Of a DNA stretch of 64,000 bases, positions 18,001 to 60,400 are shown piece by piece. The stretch's first letter is position 1. Each line of letters starts with the position of its first letter. The notes under the pieces were generated by a model. That model saw only the letters and a program-made list of their open reading frames with translations. It was not told where the DNA came from and did no database searches. The DNA lies in contig JBAIAA010000237.1 of assembly GCA_037893245.1 (NCBI GenBank), forward strand, positions 1,674,001 through 1,738,000, written 5' to 3'. This DNA is from Crossaster papposus (taxonomy: Eukaryota > Echinodermata > Asteroidea > Velatida > Solasteridae). Position numbers and translations under genes: made by a program.

Positions 18001-21000
18001 TTTAAAACTGGCCAAATGACAGGTTCTCCACCAATAGGAATGGGTCAACTGTCTTGAGGTATTTATGAATAAAACCTTTTAAAAAAAATCATGATCTGCA
18101 CAAATGAGAAAATAGAAAAAGGCTGATCATGAGTAGCATCTACAAGGCATTTTCATTTTTGGTGCTGCATCAGTTAAAAACAAAAGAAACAAAAGAAACT
18201 TACACTCATGAAGGTCTTGGCTTTTTCGTCCAGTCCCTCCAGAGGATCCAGACCCCCCTGAGAAGAAATAGATGATTCCGAGATCCTCCTGGGCGATACG
18301 GACCTGGAGGGTATGTCGTCCGGCGTCATGTAACCCGAGCCGCCAGAGTCCGACGAGGAACGAAAGGTGGAGTAGGATTCATCGTCATCATCACTGTCAC
18401 TGTCATCGCCGTCACTGGCGTCCTTATTGTCGTCAGCCTCACCCAGGGTTTTTAGCTTGTCACTGTTGAAGACGGCAGTGTTCACATCCAGTCTGCTGAG
18501 AGAGACGGTCGTGGACCCAGACTTGCCGTAGGCGTAGAGACGAATGGAGAGTATCTACACAAATCACATGTAAATGTGTATGAATAAAGCACACGTATAG
18601 ATCTATCAGTATTCAGGGTTTCCACCATTTCATGAAAACAAAATTTCCCCAAAATGTTTCCTTTAGTTTTTCTTGATACAGTTTCCCTGGTGAATTGTTT
18701 TGGCCAATTTCATAAAACATGTCTTTCATTGTATCTCCACAATTCCTGTCGAACATTTTAAAGCGTTTTTCTCTGAATCGTCTTTCCGTTACATGCTTGA
18801 GTGTTACTTTGTGAAAACAAAAATCGTCAGTGCCGCGTACATTCTCGAGTGCTAGTTCGTGAAACCGAAATTGTTCATTGAGTGTTTTTCACGAAGTAGC
18901 ACTAGTAATACGTCGTGTCTGGTTTTACAACGGCATTCATGTGCGCTTTAAGCACAATGAAGACCAAGGGCCAATTTTATAAGCAAAACAAATTTGCTTA
19001 GCATGAAAATTCTTCCTTTGCAAAAACAGGGTTACAAACCAAATTTTCAGGTGATGTTTATTGTTTGTGACTGGTATTCAGCTTAGCATGAAAAGCAGAT
19101 GAAGTTTTGGCTGGTAACCTGTAAGCACACTTTTGTGCTTACATGGTTTTTTTTAATTGGCCCCTGGCTAAAGCGAGAGATACAGAGGGATTTCTACACT
19201 AAAAAAAATACCATAGCCAATCACCAAGTGAATACGCTGTTTGGCCAAGAGACAAAATATAACAGACTGACCATTATCTCTTCCCTGAATTTTTCCCGAT
19301 TGAAGGCCTTTTTTAATGTTAGGGTTTAAGTTGTCGATGAGATATGTTGAGACAATTTTTGTGCACTGTCAAGAGCCAGAGTTGTAGTCGAGTACTTTCA
19401 GAGTACCAGCTTAATAACTACTAGATAGTAACCAGTTCGCGCCGGAGGACGTATATACACGCAAAGTTTTCCCCAGATTCAAAACGGATGACGCATAAAC
19501 ACGTCATGAGCAAGGCTGGAAATGTCTGTCAGCAGCGAGCAAGGCAGCAAATGTCTGTCAGCAGCGAGCAAGGCCGGAAATGTCTGTCAGCAGCGAGCAA
19601 GGCCGTGGGTGTGCTTCCCGGTACCATCCTGGATGTACTCAAAAGGTAAAATTAAAAAATCACAAACAAAACATTTTTATTCCTTGATGCCTACCTCTAA
19701 ATCTCTCAAGATCCACTGTCGACTGAGTTTGGTTGCCTGACTCGCCAGGTGCACAAGCATTGGAATTAGGTCACTATTGAGAAGCTCCAGTCTACCCTCG
19801 AAATCGTTACTCCCCTTGAAATAGGTCAATACAAAAAAGACTGAATTAACATATTATTTTCGCAAAAGAAATGAAAAGATAATGTCTTGAAGACTAATCA
19901 GATGATGAATGGGGACTCCAATATTGTATCCTTTACAAATCAGATTTGTGTATGCTTTATATAGGCAATGTGCCCTCTGACATCACATGTTTACATCTGT
20001 ATTGAAATGCAACCGTCAGTATGCGCACAAATCGGGTTTTGTAAAAATAAACTGGTTGAGGAGAGATGTCGCAGGTCGGATCGCCTTTGAATTATATGAC
20101 CTTTGGTGCATTTTTAAACAAAATTTATGCAAAACACGATACATGCGCATATCACCAGTCTTATTTGAATATAGGGGGACTTGTGGGGGACCATTTATAC
20201 CTTGAATGTTAATAAGGAAATAAATGTGTGTTCGAGAGGTTTTAATCACTGTTTAATACCGCTTGGAGTCTGGGTGCTGATAATTACCCGAGCCGAAGGC
20301 GAGGGTAATTATCAGCACCCAGACTCCAAGCGGTATTAAACAGAGTGATTAATACCGACCGAACACACATTTAGTCCCATTCATAAATACCTTTTTTGTA
20401 AAATTCAGCCATAAAAGCCCCGAAAATCACGGAAAATTGTCGCAAGTAAATTTTGGTGTTTCGCCATTCTGTGCGTGTCAAATGACATGTTTCCGCCTCT
20501 GTCGCTCTACACAATACATGCAATAAAGCGTATTTACTAGGAACCAGACTATTACTGCTATTGGCAACCTCGTTTTCAGCGTGTCAAGCTGTACGCGCCC
20601 AACACCACCCTACTATTGGAGACGATGTACGGTTGGAAATAAAGTGAGCCCTGGGGACGGGTATAATGCGACATCGCATGACGTATTTTGCTGCCAGCTG
20701 TGTTTAAACACCATGTCTTTATCATCCGTTTAATACCGACCAATAGGAATGCCTAAACTGTCCCAGGTATTTATGAATAATAGTTTAAATATCTTTTTCG
20801 TAAGGAAAATATATAAAAAAATAATTCTCGGCCATCCAATCATCCTTTTTTAGCTGCGGCAAAAAATCTCAATTGGATTTTGTTATATAAAAACCATCAA
20901 ATGATGAAAATCCAAGTGATTTTCACATCAGCACTTTTCTCCCGATCGTAATTTTTCTCTTTTTGCAGTCTTTAGGAGCACAGTATGCAGGGGTGAAGTC

Positions 21001-27400: not shown

Positions 27401-30400
27401 CGTGTTTCGTTAATAATAATCCTGCGCCTCGGCTCGGTGATGTTAAAATAACTCCGGCGCGAACTGGTTAATGTAAAAACAATCCTAAACATGGGGGAAA
27501 AATCTATAAATGATTTGAGGTTAAGACTAGGATTTATATTACAGTAAATGTTTAATATACGGTACAGTACAGGTGTTTGAACCGGCCTTCAGATGAAGAC
27601 AAAGCCAGGGATTCAAAAATGCCCACAGACGTCAGATGCAACAGCGACAAAAACATAATTTATAGAATAATCCATATTACTTTTCCGCTCCACATTTCTG
27701 AAAATGACACAATTTGGAGTCTGGTACCTCGACTCTGAGCAGCGTGCATCATATTGGCGAGGGACAGAGCCAGCGAGCTGAAGAGCAGCCAGGCGTGATG
27801 ATGGCTGTAGGTCTCCAGCAAGGTTCCCTGCTGCATGCCTGACGTGACTGTCTTCATGGAGAACACCTCCACGCAGTGCGAGGCAGTGTGCCTGTTGAAA
27901 TTCAGACATGTTCAGACATGTTCAGACATGTTCAGACATGTTCAGACATGTTCAGACATGTTCAGACATGTTCAGACATGTTCAGACATGTTCAGACATG
28001 TTCAGACATGTTCAGACATGTTCAGACATGTTCAGACATGTTCAGACATGTTCAGACATGTTCAGACATGTTCAGACATGTTCAGACATGTTCAGACATG
28101 TTCAGACATGTTCAGACATGTTCAGACATGTTCAGACATGTTCAGACATGTTCAGACATGTTCAGACATGTTCAGACATGTTCAGACATGTTCAGACATG
28201 TTCAGACATGTTCAGACATGTTCAGGTTTTGTTAATACTGTCCTTGCCTTCCACTGATGTGGCTGGGGTTCGATTCCACTCGGAAAGGGCATGATGTGAT
28301 TTCGCATTCGAAGCGAACAGTCATTAGCAGGATGTGATTTCAACTAAAAGATGACCAAAATCACAACCAAATGCTCTAAAATCACATCCTTTTCCAAATT
28401 CACATCCTGAATTAAGTCATTAAATGTAGGATACACCATTGGTAATTGCTTGAATTATCAGGGCTGGGTTGATTTAGGGGATTGTATTTTATAGTAAATA
28501 TCATTTAACTGGCCTGTCCAAAGTTTTACAATCATGGATGCTGAGAAAAGCAAGACAAACGGTGTTCGTTTTCAACCGGCGTCAGGCATTGGTTTTTATG
28601 TTGTTCTTGGGTTTTTTCGTGAACAATTACAGGATATCTAGCGCAATCATTTTGCTGGATGCCTATAATCATTATCTACTTTCAAATAAGTAAAATATTT
28701 CCTAAAAATTCAGTAGTAATTTTTTTAGATATCTGCAAATGGTGTATCCTACCTTTAAAATCCAAATTCACATCCACTGTTTAACTGTAATCTTATACAC
28801 TGTGGAGGTGTGTTGGGGAGGGGGGTGTAAGCTAAGAGATTTTAGACTTTACTTCCCTTAAAAAAATTCTCCGGAGCAAAAAAGTAGAAAAACAAATTAA
28901 TTTGATCCTAATAAATTTTTCAACTATATTTCCCTTAAAAAAATAAAACACACAAAAAAATAATCAGACTTGAAAAACCCTAGTAAAGTCGAGGTTTCAA
29001 ACCCACAATCTCCAATCTGAACGCCTTGCACCTTTTGGACTGAGCTATCTGAATTGCTTGGCTGAAGGCGAGAATTCATTGCATTTTGTACCTATATACC
29101 TATAATATATGCATACGTGTATTAAAATTATTGTAGAGAGCATTCAATAATCCATCGATTCGGATGCAATTTGGAAAACAATTATTCGTTATCAGGCAGG
29201 GTATCTCATACTCGACACTAATATTTGCCCTGAGATACACACAACGGCTACCTACCCTTCGGGATAGTCCTGTGCATGGTGGCAGCCGTAACACAGGTCA
29301 AAGTCCTCACAGATGTTGCAATGTACGCGAGTACCCACGATGAAACCGTGGCAGAAATCACAGTTATACCTAGCAGGATAGGCCAAGAAAACAAAAAGAA
29401 TGAAGTCAAAACCACACCAAGTAGAGAAATGACAAATATTGGGTGGGGGATAGGGGTGGGGGATAGGGGTGGGGGATAGGGGTGGGGGATAGGGGTGGGG
29501 GATAGGGGTGGGGGATAGGGGTGGGGGATAGGGGTGGGGGATAGGGGTGGGGGATAGGGGTGGGGGATAGGGGTGGGAGATAGGGGTGGGAGATAGGGGT
29601 GGGAGATAGGGGTGGGAGATAGGGGTGGGAGATAGGGGTGGGAGATAGGGGTGGGAGATAGGGGTGGGAGATAGGGGTGGGAGATAGGGGTGGGAGATAG
29701 GGGTGGGAGATAGGGGTGGGAGATAGGGGTGGGAGATAGGGGTGGGAGATAGGGGTGGGAGATAGGGGTGGGAGATAGGGGTGGGAGATAGGGGTGGGAG
29801 ATAGGGGTGGGAGATAGGGGTGGGAGATAGGGGTGGGAGATAGGGGTGGGAGATAGGGGTGGGAGATAGGGGTGGGAGATAGGGGTGGGAGATAGGGGTG
29901 GGAGATAGGGGTGGGAGATAGGGGTGGGAGATAGGGGTGGGAGATAGGGGTGGGAGATAGGGGTGGGAGATAGGGGTGGGAGATAGGGGTGGGAGATAGG
30001 GGTGGGAGATAGGGGTGGGAGATAGGGGTGGGAGATAGGGGTGGGAGATAGGGGTGGGAGATAGGGGTGGGAGATAGGGGTGGGAGATAGGGGTGGGAGA
30101 TAGGGGTGGGAGATAGGGGTGGGAGATAGGGGTGGGAGATAGGGGTGGGAGATAGGGGTGGGAGATAGGGGTGGGAGATAGGGGTGGGAGATAGGGGTGG
30201 GAGATAGGGGTGGGAGATAGGGGTGGGAGATAGGGGTGGGAGATAGGGGTGGGAGATAGGGGTGGGGGATAGGGGTGGGGGAAAAGAAATTCCACTTGAG
30301 CAAGTTTTTCCAGCGGCATTTCACCATTTAATTGGTTCTTTTTAGAAAAACATAAAAGAGACATTACCTGAAATCTACCATTGCATGGTCGTCACGGTGA

Positions 30401-33400
30401 CCCTCCACCTGGACACCACCTGGAAAACCAACAGCCAAATTGTGATTGTTATTATTTATAAATTATAAGAATTATAATTTGCACAAATTTTTGGTGGCAA
30501 TAAAATAATGGCAATACCTCCAAATAGGCACTTGGGGAGACAATCCCATAGAGATGTACACAAACTTAAAACAGTCCTAAGATCTTCGAGATTTATGCTA
30601 TTTAGACCCAAATCTTTCGTTCTTGGACAAAAATAACTCCCAAATATATTTTTTTAGGGTAGCTAGACAAATGTCTCCCTAAGTGCCACTGTTTCCTTAT
30701 TACCTAAAAACTTATGCTAATTTGTCTCCCCAAGTGCCTATTTGGAAGAATTTCTTTCCAACTTACCAAAGAAGCATGTGCGGCAGAAGTCAAAAGCTTC
30801 GCACTCCAGACAGTGATAGTATGCGCCCCGTAAACTGGCCTGGCAACCATCACAAATCATAGAAATGGAGGGCAGGAGATCGGAGAAACGAGCGACAAAT
30901 ATATGCATGCCCTGGTGATGAATGTTAACAAGAGAAAATTACATGCAGCTTACCGAAGAAGCAACGAGAGCAATAGTCCATGTCCGCGCATTCCAGACAG
31001 CGGTAGCGCGCCCCGGGGATCTGAGCGTTGCAGCCATCGCACGAGATGGTTACTTGGAGCATGCTGCAATACCGGGCGATAAACATATGCATTGCCTGGT
31101 GTGGTAAACGACACATCAAGTCATTTTTTTAAAGTCTGGTTCCGAGACGGAATGATTCGGATTATTTCGGATGAACGTTAAATTCGGCAGCTGCCAATGT
31201 CACGTGACCAAAACGGGAGGAATTCCGCCTACTTCTGATAATATGTTTTTCGAATACGTTTCAATGACATTCTGGTATTAATCGTTAACGTTCGCGATGC
31301 TCGAGTGTTTCCCAGTTTCGTTTCATATTGCCCGAACCCCTCACATATTTGCACGGGACGACCCAATGTTCATGGAGCTACTGAGCACAAGAAGTTTCTT
31401 CCTTGGCAAAAAACAGGGTTACAGATCAAATTTTTCAGGTGATATATATTGTTTGTGACTGGTATTCGAGTGATTTTGTTTGCTCTAAGCCTAAAAAACA
31501 CGTGGAGTTTTGGCTGATAACCTATTTTTACTCAGAATATGGGGCTTAGCAGCTCCACGAAATTGGCCCTAGACTGTTAAAAGGTGAACCACATTGACCG
31601 CGACACTCACCCTTCTCTTCTCCAAAGTGTCCTGGTGCTTAATATCGGAGAACCAATTCGAGAAGCGATTGCCGGAGCTAGTCTGGAACTCTTTGAACCA
31701 CGCCATGCACTGCTTGTGCACATCCAGCTGCTTGGCTTCATCCGCCATGACGGAAAGACCGTCCCGGACGCTCACGTTCCCTGCAGCGTCCAGAATCAAT
31801 GGCATTTCAAAAAATTCTCGTCGGCCAATGTCATATGAATCACAATTTAAGTCACAGTCAGCTGAACTCGGTCATCAGCTGAACTCGGTCATCAGCTGAC
31901 ACCAGACAATTGCAGTCACAACGACCAGACACAGTTTAGTAATTAGGGAATAACAGTGCGAGGAGCCAGTCTTCAATGCATGATAATGACCGGCTTGGGG
32001 GATAGACGCTGTTGATGGACCGAGCCAAAGGCTATTATGGGCTACTGGAGTGTTTTGAAGTTTAGTACTTCATATTAAACCATTAAGGGACTTTACCAAA
32101 CTTAAAAAAGGAGGATACACCATTGGTAATTGCTTGAATTATCATGAATGGGTGGATTTTGGGGGTTGTATTTTATAGTAAATATCCTGTTTAACTGACC
32201 TGTTCGAAGATTTACAATCATGGATGCTGAAAAAAGTCTTTTTGTGATCGCCTTTCCGGCGATCGTGATTTTTTTTATCAAAGTCTAAATTGCAACTGTT
32301 TCATACAAAAAGAGGGAAAAAAACAACAACACTCGATTCCCGTCTTACGTTTTGCAATGTTTAGCAGCAGGGCGGGTGCCTTGATGTCACAAAGGAACTT
32401 CAAGTCATAGGGTTGCCAGTCTACATCAAGCAGATGAAGCACGCAGGCCTCCATGCAGGCATAGCCAGTCTCAACCTCTCTGTATAAGATAGTAACCAGA
32501 CTCCTTATAACCAGATTGTAGCGGAGGACGTATAAACACGCAAAGTTTATGTAAACGGATGACGCATAATCAGCAACGAGCAAGGCCGGAAATGTTTGTC
32601 AGCAGCGAGTAAGGCCAGAAATGTTTGTCAGCAGCAAGCAAGGCCGGAAATGTCTGTCAGCAGCGAGCAAGGCCGGAAATGTCTGTCAGCAGCGAGTAAG
32701 GCCGGAAATGTCTGTCAGCAGCGAGTAAGGCCGGAAATGTCTGTCAGCAGCGAGCAAGGCCGGAAATGTCTGTCAGCAGCGAGCAAGGCCGGAAATGTCA
32801 TGAGTGTGCTTCCCAGTTCGTCCGCTCAATATCACAGTGAAGAGTAAATACAATTCTCAAATCATGATCATTTTTCAGAACCTCCGCTTAGGCTCCGTCA
32901 CCATTGCCAAACTGCATTAACGAAGCCAAAGTTGGAGTCAAAGCTGCCAGGGTTTAGAAAACGGCCCATGTTGTATTAAACACTTACTCTGATTGGTCAG
33001 TGCAGTCAAAGTTTTGGACAGCCTCGACTAGACTCTGCACCAGGAGGTAGAAAGAACCTCTCAGCCTAGCCTCCAATTCCAGTCCACAACCATCTAGTCC
33101 ACTTGCATAGTGCCTGCAAAAGGAAAACCACAAAAATACACGACGGCCTGTGACTATGGTGCGTGTGCCCTTGGGCAAGGCACTTTGTCACTCATTGCTT
33201 CTCCCCACTCAGGAGTAAATGGGTACCACCTGTGAGGGCAAAGATGGTTGTTATTAGCTGCTTTGCGCCGAAATGGCCGCATTGAGCTGTATACTCCCCA
33301 GGGAGCTAAATTGGTAGTTGGAATGTTTTGTGGGCCTAATGAACAGGAATATTAATGACACAACGCCTTGAGTATCAGTACTGGTAGATACGTGGGCTAT

Positions 33401-36400
33401 AAAACAGTTCTGTAGTATTATTATTATAATCATTATCTGTATCAATTTTGTTAAATAAACTTTTATCAACAATATTTTTTTATGGCAAAACCTGATGATT
33501 TCCAGATTTCAAAAGGGTTTCAAAAAAAAAAAAAAAAAATATTAAAAAATTTAGACCAAACTCACCCTGGGCGAACTTGATTCGGCCAAATTTTGAGAAA
33601 AAATGTATTGATGTCAAATTAGCTGTGCATTTAGCATTTGCTTGAAGTACGAACCCGTTAATAATAAAACAAATCCAACTTTTATGACATGAAAACGCAC
33701 ATTTCTGGGGAGGATTTGGAGAGGAGCATTTCCTTGAGGAACTGCAGACAGTCTGATTGGAAGACGGTAGGCTTGCCGCTGGCCTTCAGGAATCGACAGG
33801 CAAACCGGTAGACGTCGGCAACAGCCTTGGCTCGTTCCTGACGCTCCTCTAGAAGACGTTTCACCCTGAGGGTGAAACGGTCAAGAGAATTAGCATTTAA
33901 ATCAGTTATTTATTGGAAGACGGTAGGTTTGCCACCGGCCTTCAGGAATCGACAAGCAAACCGGGAAACGTCGGCAACAGCCTTGGCTCGTTCCTGACGC
34001 TCCTCTAGAAGACGTTTCACCCTGAGGGTGAAACGGTCAAGAGAATTAGCATTTAAATCAGTTATTTATTGGAAGACGGTAGGCTTGCCGCTGGCCTTCA
34101 GAAATCGACAGGCAAACCGGTAGACGTCGGCAACAGCCTTGGCTCGTTCCTGACGCTCCTCTAGAAGACGTTTCACCGTGAGGGTGAAACGGTCAAGAGA
34201 ATTAGCATTTAAATCAGTTATTTATTGGAAGACGGTAGGCTTGCCACCGGCCTTCAGAAATTGACAAGCAAACCGGTAGACTTCGGCAACGGCTTGGCTC
34301 GTTCCCGACGATTCTCAAGAAGAGAGCAAGACGGTCAAGAGAATTAGCATTTAAATTAGTTTTTTTATTGGAAGACGGTAGGCTTGCGCCGGCCTTTAGG
34401 AATCGGCAGGCAAACCGGCCTTGGCTCGTTCCTGGTGCTCCTCTAGAAGACGTCGGAATTTCATTTCTATTTGCAAGTTCCAAAAATGAAGATTTTACCT
34501 CGCTTTCCGTTTAAGACCTGAATAAAGCTTATAGGAGCCTTTTGCGTGCATAACATGTAGTACAAGAATTGAAATGTAGTACATCATAAGTCAAACCACA
34601 AGTTGAATATTGAACAAAGGAATGACTGGAGCGGGGCTTGAACCAGCAACCTCCGGGTTGCCGTTCCGGTGCTCTACCAACTGAGGTATCCAGGCCTGTG
34701 TTGGCGGTTCCCCAAATAAGTCAATATCTTTGTTCAGGGGGCGTTTGTCAGAAGCCACAAACCCGTACTTGACATGTGGCCAAGGATCACGGCCAAGGTC
34801 AAGATACTAGCAACATTTATGTGCTATATATCACATATAAAAGAAGAACATCAGTGAGCGATATAAATAACCATGGCCATCTTTACCTTTCCACTGTTAG
34901 ATGAGGGTTCTTGACAAAATCCAGGACCAGTTTAAACTCTGGGTACTGGCTCAGTACTGTGCCCTCCTCGGCTGTACCCTAACATTGGAAAAAGAGATCA
35001 ATGGAGTTCAGTTCATACTTTAGCAAAAGCAAATGAGCTTAAAATCAGAAAATTGCCATTTTGCAAAACAGAGGGCAATAACCAAAATTTTTAAGTGGTG
35101 GTCGTTTTTGTTTCTTTTCATGTGAACCTTATTTTGCAAGTCGGGTTTTACCTTTCTCCACTTTTGTTCTTTAGTCAAACATCTTTGAAACCTATTTCAT
35201 CCCATTTTTATTATGTCGTCATACATTCACCGAATTACACAACCGATTTGAAATGTCATTTTCTCAAGAATCAGTTTTACCACTTCAAGTAAGTTGTTGG
35301 TCCATATTTCCATTACTGGACTCAGTATCCCTCAATGTTGTATACCATTGGAAAGCTCTCGTTCTGCAGAATCCAGGTATATAAATATCTCAATTCTATA
35401 AAAAGTCTGACTTTCAGCTCATTTTGTGGCGACAGCTCACATAATATATTTTGTCTTAAATTCACCTGGAATGCAGCATTCATCTCTGAGGAGCTCTGGC
35501 GTTCCTTCATGGCTCTGTTGTCCAGCGACTTACTCCTTGTGTACAGTTCACTGCATCTTCGCTGAAGCTTTAAAAAAAAAAATAACAAAACAAAAGTGCA
35601 TCAAAGTTTGATTGAGCAACAGATCCCGCACCTGCACCTATTTTACGTGTGCACAAAATCTTCAATGCAAGCAGGAGGTTATCAAATGCAAGAAGTTTGA
35701 AATGGACTGAAATATTGGAAGGCAGGAGAAAGGGCATCATTAATTCTGTCGGGATGAAAGTACTTCCTGCGTGGCGTTATCTAATTTTTCGATTCTGCAA
35801 AATCATTTCCAGGACTTTTTCAGATTTAGTGAAATCTATATAATTGTCAGTTGATAATGAAGAGTTTAACAATTTTAAACTTGACTGCTTCATTCTAAAG
35901 CTTGACGTTGATTTTCAAAGCTCGGCTAGAGTCGTGAAAAACTTGGCACCCCGCCAGGCTAGTTTTAGATGTTTGAAAACCTCGCATTCTTGCCAATTTG
36001 ACACTTCTTTCCACAATAGATCATAATTTATGTGACCCAACCCTGCAAAATGAGTCTTAACGACTAGTTTTAAAAAAATGGGTTTTTTCACATGCATTGG
36101 AAAGCACATCATTTGCTTTTTATTTTTGTGTCTCACTCAGGTTGGCACCTTATAATGTACAGTTATTATTTTAGGTAAAAGGGTTGGGAAAAAAAAGAAG
36201 GAATATTTAAAATGTACCTCGACTTTCTTTTGTAGTTTGGTCAACCCAGCAAACTGAAGCAAAAACCTGGCCTTGTCCCGAACCACTCCAACTACAATGA
36301 AAAACAGAATTTATTAACCCTAACCATCCCAAATCCTCCAAAATCCTCTTTGCAAAATGCAGGATTTTTATTTTTGCAGGATTGAGAGCACTTGTAAGTT

Positions 36401-57400: not shown

Positions 57401-60400
57401 GGACTTCATATTTTCAAATGAGACCAATTTTACAATTTCAGCCTCTTTACGACTTGACTAAAATGACCTTTGACCTCAGCACTTGACATTTGACATGACC
57501 ATCATAAAAAGGTTACAATATTACATGCATGACCCAAATTTGATTGCATATTAGACCAATTTTTCAAAACTAACTAAAATGACATATACATACGGATGGA
57601 CTTCAACTTTGAATATCAGACCAATTTTTCAAAACTAACTGAATTGACACATACATACGGATGGACTTCAACTTTAAATATAAGACCAATTTTTCAAAAC
57701 TAACTAAAAAGACACATACATACATATAGACTACGGACTACAGCCTACGTACAGAAATAGTGATTGCATAGTCTCTTCCTAAACTTCGTTCAGGTGCGAC
57801 AAAATATTTATAGACAAGTTCTATGTGAAAGATGCATGTTCACATTGCGCTTAAACTGGCCGGTAAGCGGGTATTGACTCGTGAATGATTCGCATATAAG
57901 ATCAATTTTTCGAAACTAACTAAAATAACAGATACATACATGTACATATTGACTACGGACTACAGACTACATACAGAAATAGTAATTACATACTCTCTTT
58001 TTTTAAACTTGACTGACCGGCATCGTGAAAACTTCCTTATTTTTTCTATGCTATAACATGTGACCGAAAATCTAATTCAGAATTGGAAGAGTTGTACTCA
58101 CCTGGCATTTTGTGGCACTGACAATGAAGTGAAGCACTCGGACGCAGAGATCTGCCGGGGTGACTGATGCCTCCTGATCAAACGGTAGTGGTGCCATAAC
58201 CGACTGGAACAAACCAAATGATGCCAACAATACAGTGATGAAGTCGAGTACTTTCAGAGTACTTTGTTTACTACCAAACATTGTGCCGTTTGTTGCGAAC
58301 AAACCGAGACAAACATTGACAGTAAACAACAAATGAAGTCAGTGTTAGAGAAACAAAATAACTTGGGGCTTAAAGATGCATAAAGATACTTTTTAATCGA
58401 ACATTTTGGGACGAGAAAAGAACTCAGCCGAGTATAATTAAAAAAAAAAAAAAAAATAAAAAAATATGTATGTATCAAATGCTTTTGTCTTAAAAGCGTT
58501 TTCTACTTTTGAGCAAAGTATTTACTGTCCAGAGTCTGTATTATGCAGCTTTATTCATACCAAACCATCTTAATATCTGGTAACTGAGCTGGTACTCGGC
58601 AAGTATTCGACTCCAACTCTGCAAAATTAGAACCATTATTAACCCTAAAAGTCCTGAATCCTTCTATTTTGTTGATGATTTTTCACACCCTAAGGAGTTA
58701 GGGTCGGAGTTGGTACCTGCAGCTAAAAAATCAGCAATAAAGTGGGATAAAGTACCTTCTAAACTAGGGTGTCATCTTCAGTAAATTTCTGAGAGCAAAG
58801 AGTTTCCTAACTAGAAGCCGTGTAGTTTGTGCCTTTTAAAATTCTTCAGAAACATTTTCAGTTAAAAAAACGGGGGTTTGGAGAAGGGAGGGAACTTCAA
58901 AAGATGTTTCGTGGACAAATTCACAGAAACATCCGAAGAATCAAGCAGAAAACCTGATTCCCTTTGTTTGCCCACCCAATATTCAAACAACAGGCACAAG
59001 AACAGAAAAAAAAACAAGGCAAGTAAGAAAAAGGCGAGGAATAGAAATACAGAAAGGCGAGGCACGTACCAATTTGATTTTAACTTTAAAAGATGAAAGA
59101 TAGTGTTGAGGTATCGTCCCCCTTTTTACCTTGATCGCGTTGTCCACAGACGACGAGGTCGTGACATGACCAAAGAACCTGAGACCTACGATACCGAGTC
59201 TCTCTGCGTTCGCAGGGTCCTTGGGTCTGAGGAACTTGACCAGGATGTAACGGCCTAGGGTAATCTGGTCCAGCTGAATGTCCGCCTCGTCCCTGCAAAT
59301 TCAAAGGACGTGTTTTTGTTTGTTACAGATTTGTTTTTGTTTGTGTGTCATTCCGTGTCAATTCAACACGCTTTTGGACCTGACTCTCACAGATTGAAAT
59401 ATTTGATGTTATGATTGGCCTATATGAGAAAACCCTAGAACTTATTTTCTTTTTTGCAATTTGGTTTGTTTTTGAGATGCGGGTCACTGAACTTTGGACT
59501 AATTAGCATGACCTCCAAAGTATAGCACCGAGAAGGCTATGTTGTACATCATTTTGAAGCTCTTTGAATGGTCTCTATTTCATAAAATCAAATCGTAGTG
59601 CGAGACATAGAGAAAATACGTACCAAAATTACATTTGACCTTGAATTATGGAGATATGTAATGTTCAAGTTTCCAAAAAAAATCTTAAAAGTTAGTTTAT
59701 GATGTTGGCAACAATCTTGGAAAATGATGGGCAACCAAACTTTTGATTTTTTTAAAGAGTTTTGAGAGGAAAAAGTCTCATTTGCATATACAGTGAATTC
59801 TTGATAAGGCATAAAAAAAAAAATGTTATGTTGGCGTAACGGGCCCAAAAAAATAGGGTAGGTAGGTCGGGATTCTTTTTTTTTTTATTTTTTTTCCAGC
59901 AATGAAAATGATATGTTTTCTAATTGTTTCAGCCGGTAGTGATACACGATAGCGTGTCCAGGTTCAATATATACACAATCCACACACACAACAATGAGAA
60001 ACGGTCAGAAATGGTTTCAAACGTATTTATAACTAGATTTATATAGATTTTAATCATTAAATTTCGTCCCTTGAAAAAAAAAATATACAGGGTCGGCCGT
60101 ATTTTTAGGGTCGGTCGGGTTACGCCAACATAACATTTTTTTTTTTTATGCCTAAGTTAAAACCTGCTAACTCGAAAACCCGGCTAACTCGAGGTAAGAA
60201 TTTATTCCCGTCAAAAGAATTGTGTATAAACGTGCCCATGTTCAATACCTAAACAAAAATCGATTGTTAAGCCCCATTTAGTCGATTTCAAAATTGGCAG
60301 GTGCAGAAATAACTTTCATAATTAGGCCACAATTAAACCTTCAAATCTCATCTCATGCGTAACTCGAGATTCCCTTGAGATTTGACTTTAAAATCGAGAT

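Follow-up and report, generated by a model that had tools for sequence, protein, structure and literature searches.

Ligand recognition by a chromatin protein can be set by alternative splicing. In macroH2A1, the form of the ligand cavity depends on a mutually exclusive exon, and one form binds ADP-ribose while the other does not (PMC7290658). How such exclusion can be achieved has been described for the exclusive exon pair of human OGDH, where branch points were mapped 25-41 nt from the donor and a limit near 50 nt was proposed (PMC7969005); possible steric interference was also noted for 57 human clusters (9%) (PMC5740500). Among readers built on the ZZ finger, p62 holds the N-terminus of its ligands by D129, N132, R139, D147 and D149 (PMC6098011, PMC6197226). 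Human ZZEF1, a protein of 2961 residues encoded by 56 exons, contains two ZZ fingers; a description from 2024 calls the function of the first (ZZ1) unknown and the second (ZZ2) a predicted H3 reader (PMC11623951). Here, we describe a ZZEF1-like gene in which the cysteine half of ZZ1 occurs twice, in two adjacent exons that are very likely spliced in a mutually exclusive manner, as judged from their sequence.

A ZZEF1-like gene on the minus strand

The window analyzed here is a stretch of 64,000 nucleotides from Crossaster papposus, and its minus strand carries a long animal gene of many exons that is ZZEF1-like. We modeled this gene by simple dynamic programming, with no hint of duplicate exons given to the procedure. 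The resulting model had 52 exons and included exon 32a unprompted. The ZZ2 exon (29256-29369) was placed by hand from the sequence, which yielded a 53-exon partial model. The model, in which no EF-hand exon was recognized, begins at 59292, and the start of the gene may lie outside the window. The labels of exons 31 to 33 follow the numbering of an earlier, sequence-only reading of this DNA.

Pfam was run on four pieces of the 2504-residue translation. One piece contained two ZZ fingers, and weak CUB matches, below the cut-off, were seen in two pieces. An APC10/DOC domain was not confirmed, as a 123-residue N-terminal piece had no Pfam match and a 54-residue piece had no clear match in PDB, but the region that would encode the domain may lie outside the window together with the gene start. 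NCBIfam gave no match, no structure named ZZEF1 was present among the 35 and 23 solved chains matched, and a scan of viral contigs with ZZ2 as the query found no relative. As expected of a ZZEF1 orthologue, two ZZ fingers stand in tandem in a very long gene of many exons (53 in the partial model), and we took the gene for ZZEF1 because of these tandem fingers and the number of exons. We also take the ZZ2 region to resemble that of human ZZEF1.

Several repeats were found in this gene. A 156-base tandem repeat (TRF 33756-34418, 4.3 copies, 90%) duplicates the start of a coding exon at 33701-33865 on the minus strand. Further copies of the first part of this repeat, from 34021 and from 34177, both run into an in-frame stop, and an acceptor AG is present only at 34021. 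Most of intron 33-34, which separates the two ZZ exons, consists of a 13-base tandem array (29441-30279, 64.5 copies, 99% matches), and a 10-base array of 32.5 perfect copies (27901-28225) lies in the intron adjoining exon 27728-27891. One 29-base unit, in rotated form, is shared by tandem arrays in two distant introns (19508-19605 and 32570-32799). In addition, an intronic Rfam tRNA match was detected at 34623-34695 on the minus strand (38.1 bits, above the gathering score); it was not called by ARAGORN and is possibly a tRNA-derived repeat.

Two candidate alternative exons for ZZ finger 1

The region of interest is arranged as follows, in the order of transcription.

31611..31780, minus strand: exon 31, upstream constant exon, ending in phase 0 (gene model; frame test)
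31096..31610, minus strand: intron 31-32a, 515 nt (folding against shuffles)
30954..31095, minus strand: exon 32a, candidate alternative cysteine half of ZZ finger 1, 142 nt (gene model, Pfam, alignment)
30912..30953, minus strand: intron 32a-32b, 42 nt, GT-AG, with an in-frame stop if retained (scan; frame test)
30767..30911, minus strand: exon 32b, candidate alternative cysteine half of ZZ finger 1, 145 nt (Pfam, alignment, duplicate-exon scan)
30420..30766, minus strand: intron 32b-33, 347 nt, with a strong hairpin (folding against shuffles)
30368..30419, minus strand: exon 33, two histidines of ZZ finger 1 for either version (gene model; frame test)
29256..29369, minus strand: exon 34, constant cysteine half of ZZ finger 2 (hand-placed; Pfam ZZ)

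Both 32a and 32b have intact GT-AG splice sites and run from phase 0 to phase 1. Five splice outcomes were tested for reading frame. The chains 31-32a-33-34 and 31-32b-33-34 were open without a stop, and an early stop appeared when 32a and 32b were joined, when both were skipped, or when the 42-nt intron was retained. One long exon made by retention of this intron was also considered and is ruled out by the in-frame stop. The ZZ finger was recognized by Pfam in the 32a form (39.7 bits) and in the 32b form (34.2 bits), as was ZZ2 (37.0 bits; cut-off 21.4), and the 32b form additionally matched ZZ_ADA2 with 40.1 bits.

In the alignment of 32a with 32b, 23 of 47 aligned residues were identical (6/18 before the CDGC motif and 17/29 in the finger half), and the six zinc cysteines were common to both. 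What the sequence-only reading had said of the layout was thereby borne out: its positions, its view of each exon as the six-cysteine half of ZZ finger 1, and its estimate that about half of the residues are shared. The frame test agreed with its phase 0 to phase 1 assignment for both exons and reproduced the early stop that it had described for the joined form as well as the open frame with either exon alone. The histidines of exon 33 serve both chains, also as claimed.

Age and constraint of the two copies

The likeness of the two exons was well above chance, with a local alignment score of 142 against a mean of 25.4 and a maximum of 51 in shuffles (n=3000). Their DNA identity was 57%. Silent sites were saturated (pS 0.85), whereas replacement sites were not (pN 0.32), and pN was lower than pS in 5000 of 5000 bootstraps. 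When 32a was evolved in neutral simulations, none of 20000 runs kept all six shared cysteines, and none of 20000 yielded an open sequence with a pN/pS as low as that observed or lower. Saturation of pS together with an unsaturated pN therefore indicates an old duplication, followed by protein-level constraint for much of the time since. It should be noted that the pairwise pN/pS averages both branches and is compatible with a very recent loss of one copy.

We then scanned, in the style of WebScipio, the introns on either side of all 53 modeled exons for duplicate exons. Among 1399 candidates, a relative score above 0.15 was reached at two places only, which were 32b (0.53) and a shortened form of 32b (0.21). 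No third copy of the exon turned up in a search of the two flanking introns. Codon usage did not separate 32b from open intron sequence, as it did not reach the 95th percentile of the scores from 2000 open intron windows; 32a was between the 95th and 99th percentiles. When ranked from the bottom against the 52 other exons, 32a was 5th and 32b was 2nd. The cysteine-rich content of these exons is a likely reason why codon usage was uninformative.

A 42-nt intron and a possible basis of exclusion

The intron between 32a and 32b contains two branch-point-like motifs, and the better placed of them (TTAAC) lies 29 nt from the donor, with 13 nt to the acceptor. By comparison, the 51 introns of the 52-exon model, whose lengths are modeled and not derived from cDNA, ranged from 96 to 6251 nt, with a median of 755. 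The 96-nt intron, located within a repeated segment, is questionable, and the next in length has 205 nt. Steric exclusion requires that the donor and the branch point be less than about 50 nt apart, and the whole intron is 42 nt, the branch point being known as a motif. Given this length and a motif 29 nt from the donor, joining of 32a to 32b is probably hindered sterically. Mutually exclusive use of the two exons, as proposed in the sequence-only reading, has strong support from the frame, the 42-nt intron and the old, constrained divergence, all of which are properties of the DNA.

The flanking introns were folded and compared with shuffles. Intron 31-32a showed no unusual folding (z -0.81, with 23 of 100 shuffles folding equally well). 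Intron 32b-33 folded with z -4.74, and none of 100 shuffles was as stable. Its hairpin has arms of 31 nt (30722-30752 and 30513-30543) that are 94% complementary. The hairpin stretch (30513-30752), about 240 bases with inverted ends, starts 15 nt past the 32b donor and may be a transposon remnant or a splicing element. The inverted-repeat box of this hairpin was present in three copies. Exclusion by a docker and selectors, with one docker and a selector beside each exon, was rejected because all three copies of this box are downstream of 32b.

The preferred mechanism would begin with a single internal exon that was duplicated in tandem long ago, giving two alternative cysteine halves for ZZ finger 1 that would be spliced in singly. 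The first barrier to double inclusion would be the 42-nt intron, on which U1, bound at the donor of 32a, and U2, bound at the branch point of 32b, would probably not fit together. As a second barrier, transcripts with both exons or with neither would be removed by nonsense-mediated decay, as any joining that escaped the first would be frame-shifted.

Predicted ligand pocket of ZZ finger 1

At the five positions that contact the ligand in p62, the alignment shows D, N, R, D and D in 32a, identical to p62 at 5/5, and D, Q, Y, A and D in 32b, identical at 2/5. The second finger of the window has D, H, R, D and D at these positions, and the corresponding stretch of HERC2 has D, Q, R, D and D. Thus, 32b is alone among the five aligned fingers in having neither the R nor the first D of DxD. 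In p62, binding was lost with D147K, reduced with D147R and impaired with R139A (PMC6098011, PMC6197226), and N132Q lowered the affinity for N-degrons in general (PMC8038991). A D147A mutant does not appear in the passages of these papers that deal with p62 mutants (PMC6098011, PMC6197226, PMC8038991). In one comparison of ZZ domains, p62 was the only one with Asn at the N132 position (PMC8038991).

With 5/5 of the p62 contact residues in 32a and 2/5 in 32b, the selectivity of the pocket probably changes between the two versions, and two protein forms with distinct predicted pockets are probably produced from the gene. Both proteins would share the zinc coordination and the pair of aspartates that hold a free amino terminus; they would differ where the first side chain and the second residue of the ligand are read. 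The 32a form might be a p62-like reader of N-termini, and the 32b form might read other ligands or bind more weakly.

Several observations temper this prediction. HERC2 binds a peptide with N-terminal Arg with a Kd of 1.2 uM (PMC9001736) despite having Gln at the N132 position, and thus Gln at this site alone need not matter. In addition, 32b keeps two aspartates tied to N-terminus binding, which match by position those required for H3 binding in ZZZ3 (PMC6138639) and HERC2 (PMC9001736). For human ZZEF1-ZZ, no or minimal binding of Nt-Arg was described, in a passage that does not state which of the ZZ fingers was used (PMC8038991). The retained aspartates, the binding by HERC2 and the result for human ZZEF1-ZZ together make the pocket part of our interpretation weaker than the splicing part.

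The sequence-only reading had placed the strongest differences before CDGC and between CDGC and CLEC. The two exons indeed differ at 12 of 18 residues before CDGC and, counted by eye, at 6 of 10 between CDGC and CLEC, but this account was incomplete, as it left out the five residues directly after CLEC, which include a known ligand contact and differ at 4 of 5 (also by eye). It had further claimed that the gene switches the reader pocket. Homologues of p62 contacts do differ at 3 of 5 positions; however, differences are also present at 9 of 24 aligned finger positions outside the contacts, and the change concerns ZZ1 and not ZZ2. We do not claim an enrichment of differences at ligand contacts (3/5 against 9/24), and since so many other finger positions differ, five contact sites are too few to indicate a change aimed at the pocket. 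A switch of the reader pocket by exon choice is plausible at this stage. A bolder version, in which ZZ1 would be a splice-switched reader of N-termini, with 32a providing a full p62-type N-degron pocket linked to a putative ubiquitin ligase and 32b turning off or redirecting the reading by tissue or stage, is speculative, and we would not expect it to hold in full.

Alternative explanations

It is possible that one copy is constitutive and that the other, although intact in appearance, has recently fallen silent in this species and is a relic of what was once an exclusive pair. A pairwise pN/pS averaged over branches would accommodate such a recent loss, and the codon usage of 32b is below that of all but one of the 52 other exons. 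However, neither copy has lost its open frame or its GT-AG sites, each still encodes the six zinc cysteines even though silent sites are saturated, and we consider a relic unlikely. Still less probable is that both exons are used mainly for control of dose, with joined or skipped products made deliberately and then decayed in the manner of a poison exon. The early stops in the joined, skipped and intron-retained forms would fit such a role, but the 42-nt intron should hinder joining, and a poison exon could do without another ZZ half kept under constraint.

That the likeness arose by chance, or that the assembly is wrong here, is in our view very improbable. Nothing was found in favor of either beyond the long tandem arrays nearby (29441-30279), which could disturb assembly; however, copies that are just 57% identical in DNA are not a doubled copy of one sequence, and their likeness is far above that of shuffles, which argues against chance. 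We therefore favor, with good though incomplete confidence, an old tandem duplication with exclusive splicing that would yield two versions of ZZ1 differing in predicted N-terminus reading.

Comparison with known systems

A search of the main text of openly licensed papers found no report of ZZEF1 with mutually exclusive exons. One paper contains both terms, but in the passages concerned ZZEF1 is named only in an expression table (PMC4365374), and the main text of two human surveys of exclusive exons does not name ZZEF1 (PMC5740500, PMC9741552). Should RNA data confirm exclusive use, the gene would provide a natural pair of ZZ pockets within one protein frame, differing at residues for N-terminus selectivity, and with it a direct way to find the ligand of the first finger of ZZEF1. 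A separate study reportedly treats ZZEF1 as a histone reader. Upon such confirmation, the ZZ finger would also be added to the small number of readers in which exclusive splicing determines the pocket, macroH2A1 being a known case.

Human and mouse ZZEF1 (NSPA) resemble the gene described here in having two ZZ fingers and very many exons, and the passages cited mention no exclusive ZZ1 exon (PMC11623951, PMC7648380). Exons Ab and 3 of U2AF1 are similar to 32a and 32b in that they are tandemly duplicated, exclusively spliced and located in a zinc-finger protein; however, the part they change belongs to the UHM, which contains the fingers, and is not the pocket of a finger (PMC5224494). Exons 4a and 4b of OGDH share with our pair a branch point of the second exon that is too near the donor of the first (PMC7969005), but there the branch points were mapped experimentally, whereas the 42-nt intron offers a motif, and the protein and its function are different. 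With regard to the ligand, a known counterpart is the ZZ domain of p62, an N-degron reader, to which 32a is identical at all five contact positions and from which 32b differs at three, as seen in sequence. The macroH2A1.1/macroH2A1.2 pair is a close parallel to the predicted ZZ1 pair, with an exclusive exon located in the ligand cavity of a chromatin protein; it differs in that its domain is a macrodomain and not a ZZ finger, and in that it was demonstrated at the level of RNA and binding, whereas the 32a/32b pair is predicted.
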